64,000 nucleotides of DNA from Fimbriiglobus ruber (GTDB lineage Bacteria > Planctomycetota > Planctomycetia > Gemmatales > Gemmataceae): NCBI RefSeq assembly GCF_002197845.1, contig NZ_NIDE01000004.1, forward strand, positions 558,001 through 622,000, written 5' to 3'. Positions 325-9,940 of this stretch are shown here, piece by piece. Positions within the stretch are counted from its first letter, which is position 1, and every line of letters starts with the position of its first letter. The notes under the pieces were generated by a model. It made no database searches and had not been told where the DNA came from. It worked only from the letters and a program-made list of their open reading frames with translations. A program made the translations under genes and the position numbers.

Positions 325-1506
325 ATGAAGACGTTTCACTGCGATCACTGCGACCACCTCGTCTTTTTTGAGAACACCCATTGTGTGAAGTGCAACCACG
401 TCCTCGCTTACCTGCCGGACTTGGGTGTGGTCGGGTCGCTCGATCCCGGGAAGGAGCTGGGCACCTGGACGTCGCCAATCCCCCGCGCCGCCGACCGGAC
501 TTATCGCCTGTGTGCAAATTACACGGAACACAACGTCTGTAACTGGGCGATCCCGGCGGCCGATCGGCACCCGCTTTGCCAGTCGTGTCGGCTGACGCGC
601 GTGATCCCCGACCTGTCCGTCGCGAGTCACAAAGAGAGTTGGTACAAGCTGGAAATCGCGAAGCGGCGGCTCGTTTACACGTTGACCGGTTTGGGTCTTC
701 CCATCCTGAATAAAGTCGACGACCCGGACCGCGGCCTGTCGTTCGAGTTCCTGGCTGACGAGTCCGCCCCCTCGGAACAGGCGGCGGCCGGTGGCGAGCC
801 GACCGAGGTCAAGCGCGTCTTGACGGGCCACGCCGACGGCGTGATCACGCTCAATATCGCCGAGGCGAACGACGCCGAGCGCGAGAAACGGCGGTTGCAA
901 CTTCGCGAACCGTTCCGCACGCTATTGGGCCACTTCCGCCACGAGGTCGGCCACTATTACTGGGACCGGCTCATTAACGACGGGAACCGCCTGGACGCCT
1001 TCCGAGCCGCGTTCGGCGACGAGCGGGCCGACTACGGCGAAGCCCTCAAGAAGCACTACGAAACCGGTGCCCCTGTTGATTGGCAAGCCCATTGCGTGAG
1101 CGAGTACGCCACGGCGCACCCGTGGGAGGACTGGGCCGAGACGTGGGCTCACTACCTGCACATGACGGACACGTTGGAGACAGCCGCCTCGTGCGGCGTC
1201 TCGCTCCGCCCCCGTCGCCGCGACGACCCCAGCGTGAAAGCGATTCCGGACCCGATGGCCGCCTCGCCGACGCCGTTCGACAACCTGATGGATAGCTGGT
1301 TTCCCGTGACCTACATGCTGAACAATCTGAACCGCGGCATGGGCCTGCCGGACGGTTACCCCTTCGTGCTTTCGACCCCGGTCATCGAAAAACTGCGGTT
1401 CATTCACGACACGATCGCATCCGTGGAAATCGTATCCTTGGCACCGGCGTCACCTCCGCCGGTCAAAGCGAAACCCGTCGCGACGCCCGTTCCGGCCAAA
1501 GCGTGA
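325..1506 (+). CDS. Zinc-ribbon putative metallopeptidase (Peptidase_Mx-like)
   Basis: 393-residue predicted cytosolic protein with no signal peptide. The N-terminus is a zinc ribbon (CDHCDH near residue 6, CVKCNH near residue 21), followed by a second cysteine cluster (LCANY, VCNW, LCQSCR). The catalytic motif HEVGHYYWDRL lies near residue 207, an HExxH variant (HEVGH). A downstream EDWAETWAHYLHM segment could supply the third zinc ligand. This order of zinc ribbon then HEVGH is that of the putative zinc-binding metallopeptidase family (zinc-ribbon plus Peptidase_Mx); the substrate is unknown. The C-terminus is a Pro/Ala/Lys-rich tail. The ATG at 325 is the first usable start; its ribosome-binding site is weak. 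Confidence 0.85.
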   Translation: MKTFHCDHCDHLVFFENTHCVKCNHVLAYLPDLGVVGSLDPGKELGTWTSPIPRAADRTYRLCANYTEHNVCNWAIPAADRHPLCQSCRLTRVIPDLSVASHKESWYKLEIAKRRLVYTLTGLGLPILNKVDDPDRGLSFEFLADESAPSEQAAAGGEPTEVKRVLTGHADGVITLNIAEANDAEREKRRLQLREPFRTLLGHFRHEVGHYYWDRLINDGNRLDAFRAAFGDERADYGEALKKHYETGAPVDWQAHCVSEYATAHPWEDWAETWAHYLHMTDTLETAASCGVSLRPRRRDDPSVKAIPDPMAASPTPFDNLMDSWFPVTYMLNNLNRGMGLPDGYPFVLSTPVIEKLRFIHDTIASVEIVSLAPASPPPVKAKPVATPVPAKA

Positions 1507-3790: not shown

Positions 3791-4768
3791 TTACCAGTCC
3801 GAACCCAGGACGTTACCGTCGGAAGGGTTCAAAGCATAGTAAAAGGTGCTTGTAACCGTACCGCCACTGATCGATGAAGTGACGGTCCGAACACTTCCGT
3901 CCATGAGCAGGGTGTTACAGACGCCGGTGTGAATCGTTTGCGTACGGTAAGGATCGCACACGTTCAAGCCGGGGGTCGTGGCTTGTGGCGCCGCGGCATA
4001 GCTAGCGACACCGCCCGGTGCCGAGGTGTAGCCAATCATCCCTTGAACCGTCGGGGCCAGAACTCCACCATTTGTATTCGTCCACGAGTGATAATTGCCA
4101 GCCGCGCCGCCGACGGCTGTGTTGTTCGACCCGTTACAACCGGCGAACTGTTCACCGATGGCGATCGTGTTCGAAGTTCCGTCCGGGATATTAGCCACCG
4201 TGTACGCTGGGATGAAAGAGCCGTTCTGTGCCGACGACCCGAACATCTGGTAGTTCGGACCGTAGCTCGTCCCGTTCCACAACGTAGTCGTCGAAGGAAG
4301 CCCGCTTTGTAGCGTGGTGTCCGATGGGCACCCGAGACCAGGAATCACCGTCAGAGCAATGGTCGTTGTTCCAGTCGGTGCCGGGTAAACAACGCCGACA
4401 GGGCTCGCGCTGGGCGCGTACGTAACGCCGATTTGATAAACCGCGTTTTGTTCGATGTAAGGCAGAATGGTGAAGTGCCAGTAGCCGGTGTACTGGAATT
4501 TGGGGGATCCGACGGCGGTGGGGGCTGTGTAAATTGTCAGCAGCGGCGGCAGTTTGTCCTGGTACGTGCTGGCGTAGTTGTGGATGGCGACCCCAAGTTG
4601 CTTGAGGTTGTTACTGCACTTCGCCCGGGCGGCGGCTTCCCGGACCTTTTGGACTGCGGGCAGCAGGAGCCCGATCAGGATCGCGATAATCGCGATGACG
4701 ACCAGTAGCTCGATCAGGGTGAACCCACGGCGTTCGGCGCGCGACGAGTTAAAAGTAGAAACAGACAT
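3791..4768 (-). CDS. DUF1559 prepilin-like protein
   Basis: 325 residues. It starts with a short basic leader ending [19 protein letters not shown], the type IV prepilin cleavage/methylation signature (G before F, E at +5), and a long hydrophobic helix. The conserved [18 protein letters not shown] segment and a C-terminal H-x-G / MDGSVR region identify the DUF1559 family, which is greatly expanded in planctomycetes. It is probably exported and processed by a type II/IV prepilin peptidase and surface exposed; the exact role is unknown. AGAGAG precedes the ATG. It is monocistronic and ends at a strong terminator. Confidence 0.92.
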
Positions 4769-5293: not shown

Positions 5294-7138
5294 TTACTCC
5301 TCGTAAGCCGCCGTGGTCCGGCCGAGTGCCACGTCGAACTCGCTGAGGAGCGGGACTAGCATGGCCGAGATCGTGAACCCGAACGCCGCCGCGAGGGCGA
5401 CGAACGGGACCAGGGGGTCGGCGGACTCGTCGGTCCCCGGCTTGGCGATCAGGATGTTCGTCACGCAATAGAACATGGCCAGCGGGCAGAGAACGCTCCC
5501 CAGCGTCAGGGCCGGGGACGGGCGGTCCGCACTCAACACCCACAGCAACCCGCCGATGCCGAGTACCAGGAACGCGACGAAACTCAGCCACTGGTTCGCG
5601 AAACTGCCGCCGTTGATCACGATCAGATAGATACAGATTAACGTCCCGACCGAGAGGAAGAAGACCGTCCCGAGCGTGTTCACGATCGCCAGTCGACTGT
5701 TCGTGAGCCGCAGCGCCACGTGCAGGCCAAGGACCATCACGAAACAGAGCAGGATCACGATCGCGCCGAGGACGGCGACCAGCGGTCCGGCGTTCGCCGT
5801 CAACTTGTCCGCCCACCCCGCACCCGGCGGGGACTTGGTAAATGCCCCCTCGACGGCGTAAAAGCCGGCGAGGAGCAATGGGGGGATCAAATATTCCTTC
5901 GTGTTGTAGATCACACCCAGCAGCTTGCCGAAAACGAACTCGTAGGGGGAGACGTCCGTCACGAGCAACACGTCCAGCGCGCCGCCGTCGCGTTCGCTGG
6001 TAACGGACGTCACGGCCTGCGCGGAGACGAGCAACAAGCTGAGGACGACGACCGGCACCAACCCGTAAGCCGCCGCGTACGCCGGCCGCCCGCCACCCGG
6101 TTGGTGGAGCGAGTCGATGGCGAAATAGAGGATCAGGGCCAGCACCAGCCCGAACGCGAACTTGACCAACAGGGGGCGCCGGCCGTAGGCCAGCGTGCAA
6201 ATCTCCCGCCATAGGACGGGATTTCCCCAGACTTCTCGCACGGTTCCCGGCGCGGCGTGGGCCTTCGACCGAAACTCCTTGAGCTGTTCGGGCGTCATCT
6301 CCGCCTCGGGGTCGGCTTGCGGCCCCTCGCGCTGCATAATCGGTTCGCCGCTCGGGTTCCACTTGCGGAGCTTCCAAATGCCGACGCCATTGACCAGGAC
6401 ACACACACCGACCATGGCCAGGGAAAACCCATAAGCTGGCGGCAGCCCGGGCCAGCCGGAGGCGGGCGGATCGAGGACGGCCCGCATCGCCTGGAACGGG
6501 TCGATCCACATCTGGACGAGACCCCAATCGACCGATTCGGCGATCAGCGGACCGACAGCCGCGACGACCTGGGACAGACTAAGGCAGAGAGCGATCGCCA
6601 ACACCGAGAGGGCGAGCGCCTGGAACGTGCGTTCCCGCCACAGCGCGACGAGCCCGCCGAGCGACCCGGCGGCGCACGCGGTCATGAGCATCACCGCCGT
6701 CCCCTCAATGACCTGCCTCGGGTCCGTCCCGCCGAGCAAAAGGAGCAGGGAGAGCACGGGGACGGTGATGATCAGAAGGGCGGTGATCGGCAGTAGGCTA
6801 CCGAGGAGCTTACCGAGGACGATTTCGTAATCCCGCATGTCGGTGATGAGCAGCAGGATAAACGTCCGGCGGTCCTTTTCCTGCGAAACCGCGGACGCGG
6901 CCGACAGGGCGGCGAAGAAGATCAGGAGCAGGAGCTGGACGTAGACGACGATCTGGAACAGGAGCTGACCGAACCGTGCGGTCTCGCCCAGGGTGGCGTC
7001 CCGGGTGAAGCCGACGGTCGCCTGCCACGCGGTCGCCCCGAGGATGCCGAGCAGCCCGAGCAGTGCCGCGCGGGCGGTGTAGTGAGTGGTCCGCCGGGGA
7101 ACCGTGACCAGCTCCCGCATGAAGATCGGTCCGAACAC
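5294..7138 (-). CDS. ABC-2 type transporter permease (duplicated domains)
   Basis: About 614 residues with two ABC-2 permease-like halves, each with several membrane helices. The family motif is seen twice: SAVSQEKDRRTFILLLITDMRDYEIVLGK in the first half and SVTSERDGGALDVLLVTDVSPYEFVFGK in the second. I chose the GTG at 7138, giving VFGPIFMRELVTVPRR, because GGGGAG lies 5 bp upstream; a longer frame from an upstream ATG exists. The partner ATP-binding protein is not adjacent, so it must be encoded elsewhere. The substrate cannot be told. It is divergent from the sulfatase-like gene. Confidence 0.82.
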   Translation of the reverse strand: MFGPIFMRELVTVPRRTTHYTARAALLGLLGILGATAWQATVGFTRDATLGETARFGQLLFQIVVYVQLLLLIFFAALSAASAVSQEKDRRTFILLLITDMRDYEIVLGKLLGSLLPITALLIITVPVLSLLLLLGGTDPRQVIEGTAVMLMTACAAGSLGGLVALWRERTFQALALSVLAIALCLSLSQVVAAVGPLIAESVDWGLVQMWIDPFQAMRAVLDPPASGWPGLPPAYGFSLAMVGVCVLVNGVGIWKLRKWNPSGEPIMQREGPQADPEAEMTPEQLKEFRSKAHAAPGTVREVWGNPVLWREICTLAYGRRPLLVKFAFGLVLALILYFAIDSLHQPGGGRPAYAAAYGLVPVVVLSLLLVSAQAVTSVTSERDGGALDVLLVTDVSPYEFVFGKLLGVIYNTKEYLIPPLLLAGFYAVEGAFTKSPPGAGWADKLTANAGPLVAVLGAIVILLCFVMVLGLHVALRLTNSRLAIVNTLGTVFFLSVGTLICIYLIVINGGSFANQWLSFVAFLVLGIGGLLWVLSADRPSPALTLGSVLCPLAMFYCVTNILIAKPGTDESADPLVPFVALAAAFGFTISAMLVPLLSEFDVALGRTTAAYEE

Positions 7139-7256
7139 GCATGCTCCCCGGTAGGATTCGTTCCGAACCCGATTGCCCCACACTTATTCAAATTATGAAC
7201 TTGGGGCTCGAAACCCGGGGTTCGGAGTCGAACTTTTTGGCTACAATTCGTCCGGT

Positions 7257-8675
7257 ATGAACATCATCGTCTTCGCGCTCAACGGCTGCCCGCTGGCGGC
7301 CCTCGGTCCGTACGGCAACGAATGGATTGCCACCCCCAACCTCGACCGGCTGGCGGCCGAGGGGGTCGTGTTCGACAACCACTTCTCCGACTGCCCCGAT
7401 CCGGCCGCCGCCCGGAAAGCCTGGCGGACTGGGCGACACCAGTGGCCGACTTCCGAAACCCGCCGCGACAACGCCCCGCCGGACGATCTGATTCTCCTCG
7501 CGAGGGTTCGCGGGGCGCACACTGTTCTCGTGCGCGCGAATCGACCCGCGAACGACGCCCATGCGGAGTTCTACGCCGGGTGGGACGAAATGTTCGACGC
7601 CCGCCCGGACGCCTCAACCCCGGCGGGGGCCGACGCCCTGGCAAAGATTCTGCCCGAGGTTCTCGACCGGCTGACGGCACACCCCGGTTGGCTGCTCTGG
7701 ATCGAACTCGACCAACTTCTCCCCCCCTGGCACATTCCACAGGACGTGTTCGACGCTTACGTCGAGGATCTGTTCGAGGAGGAGGAAGCCGACCCGTCGG
7801 AGGTGAGCGACGCTGCCGAGTCCACAGACGAATCCGAAACTGACGACGAGTCAGAGACCTCGGGTGAAATCGAAGAGCTAGACATCGCGGATGAAGCGGA
7901 TGATGACGAAGAGGCGGAAGAACCCGAAGACGAAGAGGACGAAGAGGAGGACGAGTCGGAGCTCGACTTGCCCGAAAAGGAGCCGATCCGCCCGTGGACC
8001 GAGCCGGTGATCGGTTGGTTCGATCGGGACGACCTCGCGTCGTGGGAATTGTTGCACCGTTCGTTTGCCGCCGCGCTGACAGTGTTCGACGCGGGGCTCG
8101 GCCGGATCTTTGACTTGCTGCGGGCTCGCGGGCTCGAACAATCCGCCGTCTGGGTCGTGACCGCGGACCGCGGGTATCCGCTCGGGGAACACGGGCTGAT
8201 CGGGCCGTTCCGCCCGTGGCTACATGAGGAACTGGTTCACGTCCCGTTGATCGTGCACCTCCCGGCCACGGCGTCGGCCGGCCATCGCGTGGCGGAGTTG
8301 ACCCAACCCGCCGACCTGATGCCGACGCTCGCCGGCTGGCTCGGGATCACCCCCGCAGCGGTCGATGGTCTGAATCTCCTGCCGCTCATTCAAGATGGCG
8401 GCCCCTGGCCCCGTTCGTCGGCCTGTTCCGGGTTGATCGGCGACACCACAGCCGAGTGGGCAGTTCGGACCCGGGAATGGCTCCTCGTGAAGCCCGGCGA
8501 GCAACCGCCGGACGACGACCCGCGCGGGTTGCTCCTCTTCGAGAAGCCGGACGACCGCTGGGAAGTCAACAACCTGCTGTCGCGGCACCCGGAACGGGCG
8601 GAAGAGTTGGAGAAAATTCTTCGCGATACGCTGTCGTCCGATCGCGGCCCGGTTGATGCCACGCCTGAAGGATGA
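7257..8675 (+). CDS. Sulfatase-fold protein lacking catalytic residues, with acidic insert
   Basis: About 472 residues from the ATG at 7257. The frame is open earlier, but the family begins at MNIIVF. Family landmarks are clear: GPYGNEWIATPNLDRLAAEGVVFDNHF at the N-terminus, TADRGYPLGEHGLIGPF later, then VPLIVHLP and LMPTLAGWLGI. The active-site residues are missing, however. The metal-binding Asp pair is replaced by Asn-Gly (ALNG), the CxPxR nucleophile motif reads PAAAR with no Cys/Ser at the nucleophile position, and DHG is DRG. Residues about 174-241 are a very acidic insert (Glu/Asp runs). It is likely a non-catalytic or repurposed alkaline-phosphatase-superfamily protein. No signal peptide is visible. 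Confidence 0.8.
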   Translation: MNIIVFALNGCPLAALGPYGNEWIATPNLDRLAAEGVVFDNHFSDCPDPAAARKAWRTGRHQWPTSETRRDNAPPDDLILLARVRGAHTVLVRANRPANDAHAEFYAGWDEMFDARPDASTPAGADALAKILPEVLDRLTAHPGWLLWIELDQLLPPWHIPQDVFDAYVEDLFEEEEADPSEVSDAAESTDESETDDESETSGEIEELDIADEADDDEEAEEPEDEEDEEEDESELDLPEKEPIRPWTEPVIGWFDRDDLASWELLHRSFAAALTVFDAGLGRIFDLLRARGLEQSAVWVVTADRGYPLGEHGLIGPFRPWLHEELVHVPLIVHLPATASAGHRVAELTQPADLMPTLAGWLGITPAAVDGLNLLPLIQDGGPWPRSSACSGLIGDTTAEWAVRTREWLLVKPGEQPPDDDPRGLLLFEKPDDRWEVNNLLSRHPERAEELEKILRDTLSSDRGPVDATPEG

Positions 8676-8701: not shown

Positions 8702-9940
8702 TCAAAGCTGTGCGGCACGGTAGTTCGTGACCGCGAACATCAGTTCGCGGGCGTCGCGCGGGCGTGCCACGGGGTCGGGGGCCAGGCACCGCTTGGCGAG
8801 CGCGACCAGTTCGGCGTCGGCCCGACACTCGTCCAGGCGGGCCAAGGCGTCGGTGACATCGCCCTCTCGGTTTCGCTGGAGTATCACGCTCTGGGACGCG
8901 TCGGCGAAGGGCGGCTCGCCGGTCAGGATCACGCAGAGGATGGCCCCGAGGCCGAACACGTCGGCCCGCTCGTCGACCCGCCGCGGCCCCCCCTGGATCT
9001 GTTCCGGGGCCATGAACCCCGGCGTGCCCAGTGCGGTCCCGTGGTGGGTGATGTTTTCCGCGATCGGGGCAATGGGGCTGGTGTCGATGTCCAGCGTGTC
9101 CGAGGGCACCTCGACGGTCGGGGTGTCCGGGTCGGACAGGATCTTGGCCAACCCCCAGTCGAGAACCCGGACCTGGCCGAACGCGGAAACGATCACGTTC
9201 TGCGGTTTAAGGTCCCGGTGGATGACGCCGCGCGAGTGGGCATACGCGACGGTCTGACAGACCTGCTCGAACACCTGAATCCAGTGGTGGATTTCGTGGC
9301 CGACGGCCGGCCGCTCGCCGAGCAGGCGGTCGAGCGTCTTGCCCCGGACCAATTTCATGGCGAGAAACGCCCGCCCGTCGGGAAACCGGCCCAGGTCGTA
9401 CACGGGGATGGTGCCCGGGTGCTGGAGTTGGCCTGTGATCTGGGCTTCCTGAACGAATCGGGCCTCGGTCCGCGCGTCGGTCGAATACAGGATTTTGATG
9501 GCGACGTCCCGGCCGAGAACCGTGTCCCGGGCCCGGAGGACGACGCCCATGCCGCCCCGGGCGATCTCGCCGCGGAGTTCGTAGCGGTCGGCCGCTCCCC
9601 TCTGGTAATTCAACACCTCGACGTTGGCCCGCACGACGAGCGGATCGCCTTTTTCCTCGGACGTGTGAACCGTTCTGTGGTTGGTGCGGGCGGCGGGGAA
9701 GCCTTCCAGGTTTTGAAGGATTTCGTCCGCCATCAAGACTTCCGTCTTGGACGTCGGTCCCTTCGGTTCGGGCGGTGTGGGGGGGCTCGGCACGGGCAGT
9801 CCTTGGACGGGCGACGTTTCGAGCGATAGCACGCTGATAAAATCTAGGCAATCGGAGCTCGGCAATTCACTTGAATCAGACGGAAATTTGGACTTCATGC
9901 CGTGTCGAATTATGGTCTGAGATGATCGTGTTTGTGCCAC
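8702..9940 (-). CDS. Serine/threonine protein kinase
   Basis: Up to 412 residues. The kinase domain spans about residues 119-400. Visible motifs are the glycine-rich loop GEIARGGMGVV, the catalytic Lys in DVAIKIL, HRDLKPQNV in the catalytic loop, DWG in place of DFG (common in planctomycetes), GTPGFMAPEQ and DVFGLGAILCVILTGEPPF. Unlike many planctomycete kinases there is no membrane segment or repeat domain after the kinase; it stops shortly after the last helix. The furthest start is GTG at 9940; ATG codons at 9898 and 9733 are alternatives and all leave the domain intact. It is convergent with the sulfatase-like gene, 26 bp apart. Confidence 0.92.
   Translation of the reverse strand: MAQTRSSQTIIRHGMKSKFPSDSSELPSSDCLDFISVLSLETSPVQGLPVPSPPTPPEPKGPTSKTEVLMADEILQNLEGFPAARTNHRTVHTSEEKGDPLVVRANVEVLNYQRGAADRYELRGEIARGGMGVVLRARDTVLGRDVAIKILYSTDARTEARFVQEAQITGQLQHPGTIPVYDLGRFPDGRAFLAMKLVRGKTLDRLLGERPAVGHEIHHWIQVFEQVCQTVAYAHSRGVIHRDLKPQNVIVSAFGQVRVLDWGLAKILSDPDTPTVEVPSDTLDIDTSPIAPIAENITHHGTALGTPGFMAPEQIQGGPRRVDERADVFGLGAILCVILTGEPPFADASQSVILQRNREGDVTDALARLDECRADAELVALAKRCLAPDPVARPRDARELMFAVTNYRAAQL

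Follow-up and report, generated by a model that had tools for sequence, protein, structure and literature searches.

The window, which is the whole stretch of 64,000 nucleotides of Fimbriiglobus ruber DNA that was analysed, contains a gene for a degenerate relative of the sulfatases that is read divergently from a gene for an ABC-2 family permease. The coordinates given for the former in the initial annotation, 7257-8675, are exact and translate to 472 amino acids and then a stop codon. The features of the locus on which the analysis draws are as follows.

5294-7138, reverse strand: divergent ABC-2 family permease (PF12698/PF12679), 614 amino acids from the GTG at 7138 or 629 from the GTG at 7183.
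7139-7256, no strand: intergenic region between the divergent genes, provided that translation of the permease begins with the GTG at 7138.
7257-8675, forward strand: gene for the putative sulfatase-fold pseudoenzyme, 472 amino acids plus stop, with residue 2 already within the first beta strand.
7281-7286, forward strand: N9-G10 in place of the metal Asp pair (profile alignment and control).
7401-7403, forward strand: P49 at the nucleophile position, which is Cys in 21/21 of the genome's own sulfatases and Thr in the nearest complete relative.
7413-7415, forward strand: R53, the Arg of CxPxR, which is kept (profile alignment).
7719-7730, forward strand: L155-P-P-W158 instead of PHxP, with W158 near-invariant across the family.
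7776-7979, forward strand: acidic block, residues 174-241, of low model confidence (block means 52-72) and variable length in orthologues.
8166-8171, forward strand: D304-R305 (DxG), with the Asp kept and the metal-binding Asn/His replaced by Arg (profile alignment).
8544-8570, forward strand: KPDDRWEVN, residues 430-438, the characteristic family motif (conservation in family versus outgroup).

A scan of positions 7100-7300 returned no sites for a sigma-70-type promoter, and no ATPase gene was recognised beside the permease among the window open reading frames searched. A role of the pair in defence was discarded, as neither gene has a PADLOC match. Elsewhere in the window are a putative zinc metallopeptidase (Peptidase_Mx; 325-1506, forward strand), a DUF1559 protein with a pilin-like N terminus (3791-4768, reverse strand) and a Ser/Thr kinase that is convergent with the pseudoenzyme gene (8702-9940, reverse strand).

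Planctomycetes are known for their many sulfatases, and the source genome has 26 matches to PF00884 (Sulfatase), among which the 472-residue protein ranks 24th at 47.5 bits. In the Pfam search of the open reading frame the match scores 66.6 bits, where the cut-off is 25. An AlphaFold2 model built from 77 sequences has a pLDDT of 89.1 and a pTM of 0.86, and in comparison with solved structures (Foldseek list) it matches sulfatases and phosphonate monoester hydrolases over residues 1-464. The best match is to 6hr5 (Z 36.8, 342 residues, rmsd 2.9), with Z between 30.4 and 36.8 among the 50 matches listed. The sulfatase fold proposed in the initial annotation is thus borne out by the family match, the model confidence and the structural match, and the structure prediction and superposition on active sulfatases suggested there recovered the complete fold. 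Sequence and model together place the protein in the alkaline phosphatase superfamily, with a predicted sulfatase fold of N- and C-terminal subdomains. The whole fold, including the C-terminal subdomain, is shared with the S1 formylglycine sulfatases (6hr5, S1_25; 7stv; 6hhm, S1_7), from which the protein differs in having no nucleophile, metal Asp pair, pocket His or Lys.

The protein is probably located in the cytoplasm, to judge from its N-terminal hydropathy and early first strand. Strand 1 of the model comprises residues 2-8, and the N-terminal hydropathy of 1.31 is lower, and so less signal-like, than in 19/23 of the genome's own sulfatases, though not all of them; the highest 19-residue value anywhere in the protein is 1.39. 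Orthologous frames open at M1 in 39/60 cases, with Met at alignment column 1 in 55/60. In three orthologues (L093, L094, L095) the frame is open for a further 216-320 residues 5' of the conserved start, and the extension in L093 is probably a chance open frame because it overlaps a divergent GTP cyclohydrolase gene.

Catalytic positions were compared by aligning a profile of 38 orthologues with one of the genome's own sulfatases, and this alignment covers nearly the whole of the 472-residue protein. Seven core sites were considered, namely D1 (residue 9), D2 (10), the nucleophile (49), the His of PHxP (155), D3 (304), the Asn/His (305) and the distal Lys (319), and their numbering was set on the own sulfatases as a control, which keep 7/7 sites in 21/21 rows. 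At these sites the protein has N, G, P, L, D, R and R. There is no Cys or Ser of CxPxR, the formylglycine precursor, at P49, and the Asp-Asp plus Asp-Asn/His metal site of the S1 sulfatases is reduced to D304, with N9, G10 and R305 at the other positions. The GK Lys of sulfatases is replaced by R93 and the distal Lys by R319. The earlier statement that all recognisable catalytic residues have been lost therefore holds for the most part, the exceptions being D304, which is one of the seven core sites, and R53. A formylglycine sulfatase whose residues are merely shifted in the alignment is ruled out by the control rows.

The losses are common to orthologues, which rules out decay limited to one strain and answers the survey that had been proposed to see whether they are conserved. 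Among 61 Gemmataceae rows, 16 keep none of the seven core sites, 41 keep one and four keep two, D304 being present in 38/61; among 81 rows from named genomes the corresponding numbers are 14, 59 and seven, with one row (L167) keeping four. In 40 class-wide rows none, one, two, three or four sites are kept in two, 30, one, six and one, respectively. E311 and H312 are near-invariant in the family. Pseudoenzyme status, first suggested from the single protein, is well supported at the level of the family by these shared losses, by purifying selection in close pairs and by descent within a single clade, all of which are sequence evidence.

With regard to distribution, a profile of the 38 orthologues matches 93/102 genomes of the order at 1e-30, a count that is better taken as about 90 because three of the matches (G068, G069 and G071; 111-119 bits) lie at the level of ordinary sulfatases. 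At class level 225/397 genomes match at 1e-36, where genomes of 90% completeness were requested, the four best candidates were scored per genome and the matches were read in part. Each listed genome has one match, which is weak evidence for a single copy because it rests on four scored candidates. With a broader profile, G110 and G145, both genomes of the class, each have two matches, of which the second scores 144-157 bits and is thus at the level of ordinary enzymes; the matches of this profile outside the class give no distribution count, and the ten that were inspected all keep the Asp, the Thr or Cys, the His and DHG. The search profile leans towards Gemmataceae, and distant members may therefore be missed. 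The 152 confirmed relatives, of which 80 were kept, include records from Limnoglobus roseus PX52, Gemmata sp. IIL30 and Planctomycetales bacterium 10988. A contig labelled Candidatus Nealsonbacteria (L157) carries a Pirellulales-like member, nearest to L171, and is probably mis-binned.

In phylogenetic trees the family forms one clade. In the first tree, built from every second alignment row and 21/23 own sulfatases (fragments L018 and L023 being excluded), 53 family rows separate from 21 own sulfatases with an SH-aLRT support of 100; in the second, built from every fourth row and 11 own sulfatases, 41 family rows including the 472-residue protein separate from 21 others with a support of 100/100. 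Three of the rows are partial (L071, L106, L190). The nearest named neighbours of the 472-residue protein are Gemmataceae, and its own family (f1 in the searches) is therefore given that name here. The sister row of the family, L282, comes from another family of the phylum and is of a complete Thr type (TLPTRR, DPHEPW, DHG). Such Thr-type sulfatase-like proteins of other Planctomycetota, which are uncharacterised, are the nearest complete relatives, sharing W23, G306, H312 and P330 with the family and keeping the Asp, Thr, His and DHG. In all ten outgroup rows D1, the pocket His and DHG are intact, and the nucleophile is Thr in seven of them and Cys in three.

Different remnants of the active site are found along the branches of the family. 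The first branch, f3 (L226, L227, L228, L229, L237 and L241), keeps T49, R53, H155, D304 and Q305, with Asn at D1, and its members, which may still be enzymes, are well suited for comparison. Pirellulales-like rows keep D1 and have lost the Thr, the His and usually D304, and in the branch of the 472-residue protein D304 alone is kept. Loss of different residues in different lineages is as expected had catalysis ceased to matter. The ancestor was most likely an alkaline-phosphatase-superfamily hydrolase with a Thr nucleophile, as the sequences would indicate. Loss of a formylglycine residue, as had been assumed, is probably the wrong history, because Thr is present both in the nearest complete relative and in the basal branch.

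The family is under purifying selection in related pairs. The ratio dN/dS is 0.05-0.23 in 12/13 of them and 0.50 in one, the values being rough in the several pairs where dS exceeds 1; the relatives of the 472-residue gene itself are all too distant for such a comparison. One of 60 orthologues (L069/L142, in G027) is split over two overlapping frames, by a frameshift or a sequencing error.

When the family is compared with the outgroup (130 rows), nearly all of the strongly conserved positions belong to the ancestral scaffold, from which T405, K430, R434 and W435 stand out. The last three lie in a C-terminal motif, KPxDRW[ED]xN, present at residues 430-438 of the 472-residue protein, which is the clearest conserved novelty of the family and which the initial annotation did not mention. 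P431 is present in 109/109 family rows, K430 in 95/109, W435 in 92/109 and R434 in 85/109. All of K430, P431, D433 and W435 occur together in 85/110 family rows, 0/10 outgroup rows and 0/21 own sulfatases; these counts leave out the 80 loci that were fetched with KPxDRW as the pattern, though those loci are among the 130 rows of the conservation comparison, and the counted rows include 40 retrieved by a profile that contains the motif columns and 10 chosen from 20 loci. Single letters are found occasionally in the outgroup (W in 1/10, L296; K in 1/9; P in 3/10; R in 2/10) and hardly in the own sulfatases (W and K in 0/21, R in 1/21), and none of the Thr-type proteins has K, P, D and W together. 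The motif was already present by the basal branch, because 6/6 f3 rows carry K, P, R and W. Its presence there, together with the graded remnants of the active site, makes the order of events testable.

The reading preferred here, with moderate confidence, is that the 472-residue protein is a pseudoenzyme, probably cytoplasmic, which derives from a hydrolase with a likely Thr nucleophile and has been kept as a binding or scaffold protein, as both the sequences and the predicted structure suggest. Such a protein would be retained for its shape and would work by binding rather than cutting, with the former pocket serving at most as a ligand-sensing site and the face that bears KPxDRW[ED]xN as a docking surface. 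More tentatively, it may have a role in cell-envelope biogenesis, with the divergent ABC-2 permease here and with exopolysaccharide assembly genes in other orders. At the level of sequence the family is a real and conserved pseudoenzyme family of the Planctomycetia, and the copy in the window carries a long acidic loop. A published description of this degenerate sulfatase-fold family was not found in the open-licence papers searched, where those that turned up for an inactive sulfatase concern, to judge from their titles, sulfatase deficiency, SUMF1 or inhibitors. The SulfAtlas paper describes nine sequences from Lentisphaerae and Planctomycetes as possibly inactive, a positively charged residue having been lost (PMC5066984), and the word 'sulfatase' is absent from the main text of an essentiality paper on Planctopirus limnophila (PMC10632474).

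By analogy, the family may work most like the enterobacterial YejM/LapC/PbgA, whose sulfatase-fold domain likewise lacks the sulfatase nucleophile and which is described as acting by protein binding in envelope regulation, as a LapB antiadaptor (PMC12444477). YejM is reported to be an inner-membrane protein with a five-transmembrane domain and a periplasmic domain (PMC4973235, PMC7576196). No five transmembrane helices of this kind are present in the 472-residue protein, in which peak 19-residue hydropathy is as given above and the fold begins from residue 2, and it scores 24.8 bits with the YejM family model NF038282, for which the cut-off is 825. On these features it is not a member of YejM/LapC/PbgA.

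YejM also provides the precedent for the main alternative, namely that catalysis persists in the protein at a rewired active site. D304, R305, E311/H312 or further residues of the pocket would then serve, for instance, a weak metal-dependent phosphatase or phosphotransferase activity. YejM was judged inactive from its structure and was then reported to be a Mg-dependent phosphatase, and it is reported to have an Arg near the ligand site (PMC4973235, PMC7576196); a missing sulfatase residue does not, on this precedent, exclude another activity. Some family members may be enzymes, because the six basal rows keep T49, R53, H155, D304 and Q305 and because D304, R53 and E311-H312 survive, E311 and H312 being near-invariant and D304 retained in the majority of Gemmataceae rows noted above. 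Against such chemistry, the nucleophile position varies (Pro, Leu, Ala, Thr or another residue), and many relatives have Ala, Pro, Ser, Arg or Thr in place of D304. E311 and H312 are ancestral and not new. Sites that are kept in one lineage and lost in another are unlike a conserved alternative chemistry, and a rewired enzyme is considered unlikely.

The initial annotation placed the function of the protein, perhaps calcium or protein interaction, in the acidic block. The block itself is confirmed: 41 of the 68 residues at 174-241 are D/E (48 D/E/S), and the densest 68-residue window has 42 D/E, a count that never exceeds 29 when the protein is shuffled 5000 times. Low model confidence, with block means of only 52-72 between about residues 171 and 240, suggests that this segment is disordered. 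Loop length, taken as residues aligned to 160-262, is not conserved, because it ranges from 10 to 175 amino acids in 60 Gemmataceae rows (partial row L106 being excluded) and is about 36 in most of 37 non-Gemmatales rows; it is at least 60 in 26/61 Gemmataceae rows. The longest loop, that of L103 (G040), has 175 residues of which 25% are Asp/Glu, and is thus long without strong acidity. The D/E fraction is at least 0.3 in 38/61 Gemmataceae rows, 0.38-0.40 in five of the six f3 rows and mostly 0.22-0.38 in the 37 non-Gemmatales rows, compared with 0.08-0.28 in ten outgroup rows, so that slight acidity of the loop may be a general feature of the family. On this basis the loop could be the functional element, binding calcium, a basic protein or RNA, with the sulfatase fold only presenting it, and the strong enrichment in the 472-residue protein is in favour. 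However, it is the fold and the C-terminal motif that are conserved, not the length of the loop, the segment is predicted to be disordered and no calcium-binding domain was found in the protein by Pfam. The proposal is accordingly regarded as rather improbable; the loop may tune binding and is probably not the core function. A decaying pseudogene or assembly artefact, to which the loss of nearly all catalytic residues and the split orthologue L069 might point, is rejected as highly improbable on dN/dS values below 1, open frames in nearly all orthologues fetched, near-invariant scaffold residues and the presence of one clade across the class.

For the preferred reading of a binding protein, the neighbouring genes offer some indication of context. 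The ABC-2 permease is a core gene of Gemmataceae, present in 66/66 near-complete genomes of that family and in 89/95 of all (as two pieces in three genomes). It lies head-to-head with the pseudoenzyme gene in 32/60 Gemmataceae loci, no other arrangement being seen, and is not seen in the other 28/60; three of the 60 loci have less than 1200 bp upstream. An AAT acyltransferase (PF03417) accompanies the permease type of locus in 17/60 and was not found at the window locus. GTP cyclohydrolase I occupies the divergent position in 2/60 Gemmataceae loci and in 7/40 class-wide loci, the latter of the same order.

Besides the Gemmataceae loci, neighbours were examined in two further sets, which comprise 67 distinct loci after removal of three doubles and include some distant Gemmatales. 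A GHL10 protein of about 1300 residues lies directly downstream of the gene in 21/67 (e.g. L171:7871-11794, for which no NCBIfam model matched), and WecG lies directly upstream in 9/67. At L233:1681-10693 the gene is the last of a compact exopolysaccharide locus with Wzx, a deacetylase, GNAT, Wzz, Wzy_C and WecG. A GHL10 partner in the source genome (G000) was discarded, as no match was found in a search that lacked a positive control. Envelope or exopolysaccharide work is a suggestive common thread of these neighbourhoods, against which stands the fact that they differ between orders.

A more specific form of the binding hypothesis is that the protein is a cytoplasmic regulator, in which the dead pocket would read a sugar- or phosphate-bearing envelope precursor and KPxDRW[ED]xN would signal to the export or assembly machine of the lineage. 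That machine would be the ABC-2 permease in Gemmataceae and the exopolysaccharide loci with Wzy, WecG or GHL10 in other orders. This proposal is speculative and is held to be doubtful; if true, it would make the protein an equivalent of YejM in the cytoplasm that arose from a different ancestor.

The family also matters for the reading of planctomycete genomes, since a match to PF00884 is readily counted as a sulfatase and a widespread family of the Planctomycetia would be miscounted in this way. It offers a natural series from enzyme to non-enzyme, in which much of the active site is still present in basal members and differing remnants of it in other orders. The motif points to a surface to mutate in bacteria with little-known envelope regulation. 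A partnership with FtsH as a rule was rejected, given that FtsH adjoins the gene in 3/60 loci, all of one genus. In these three (L090, L094 and L097) the gene is followed immediately downstream by one for an FtsH-type protease (AAA + M41), a neighbour worth noting since YejM exerts its effect through LapB/FtsH.
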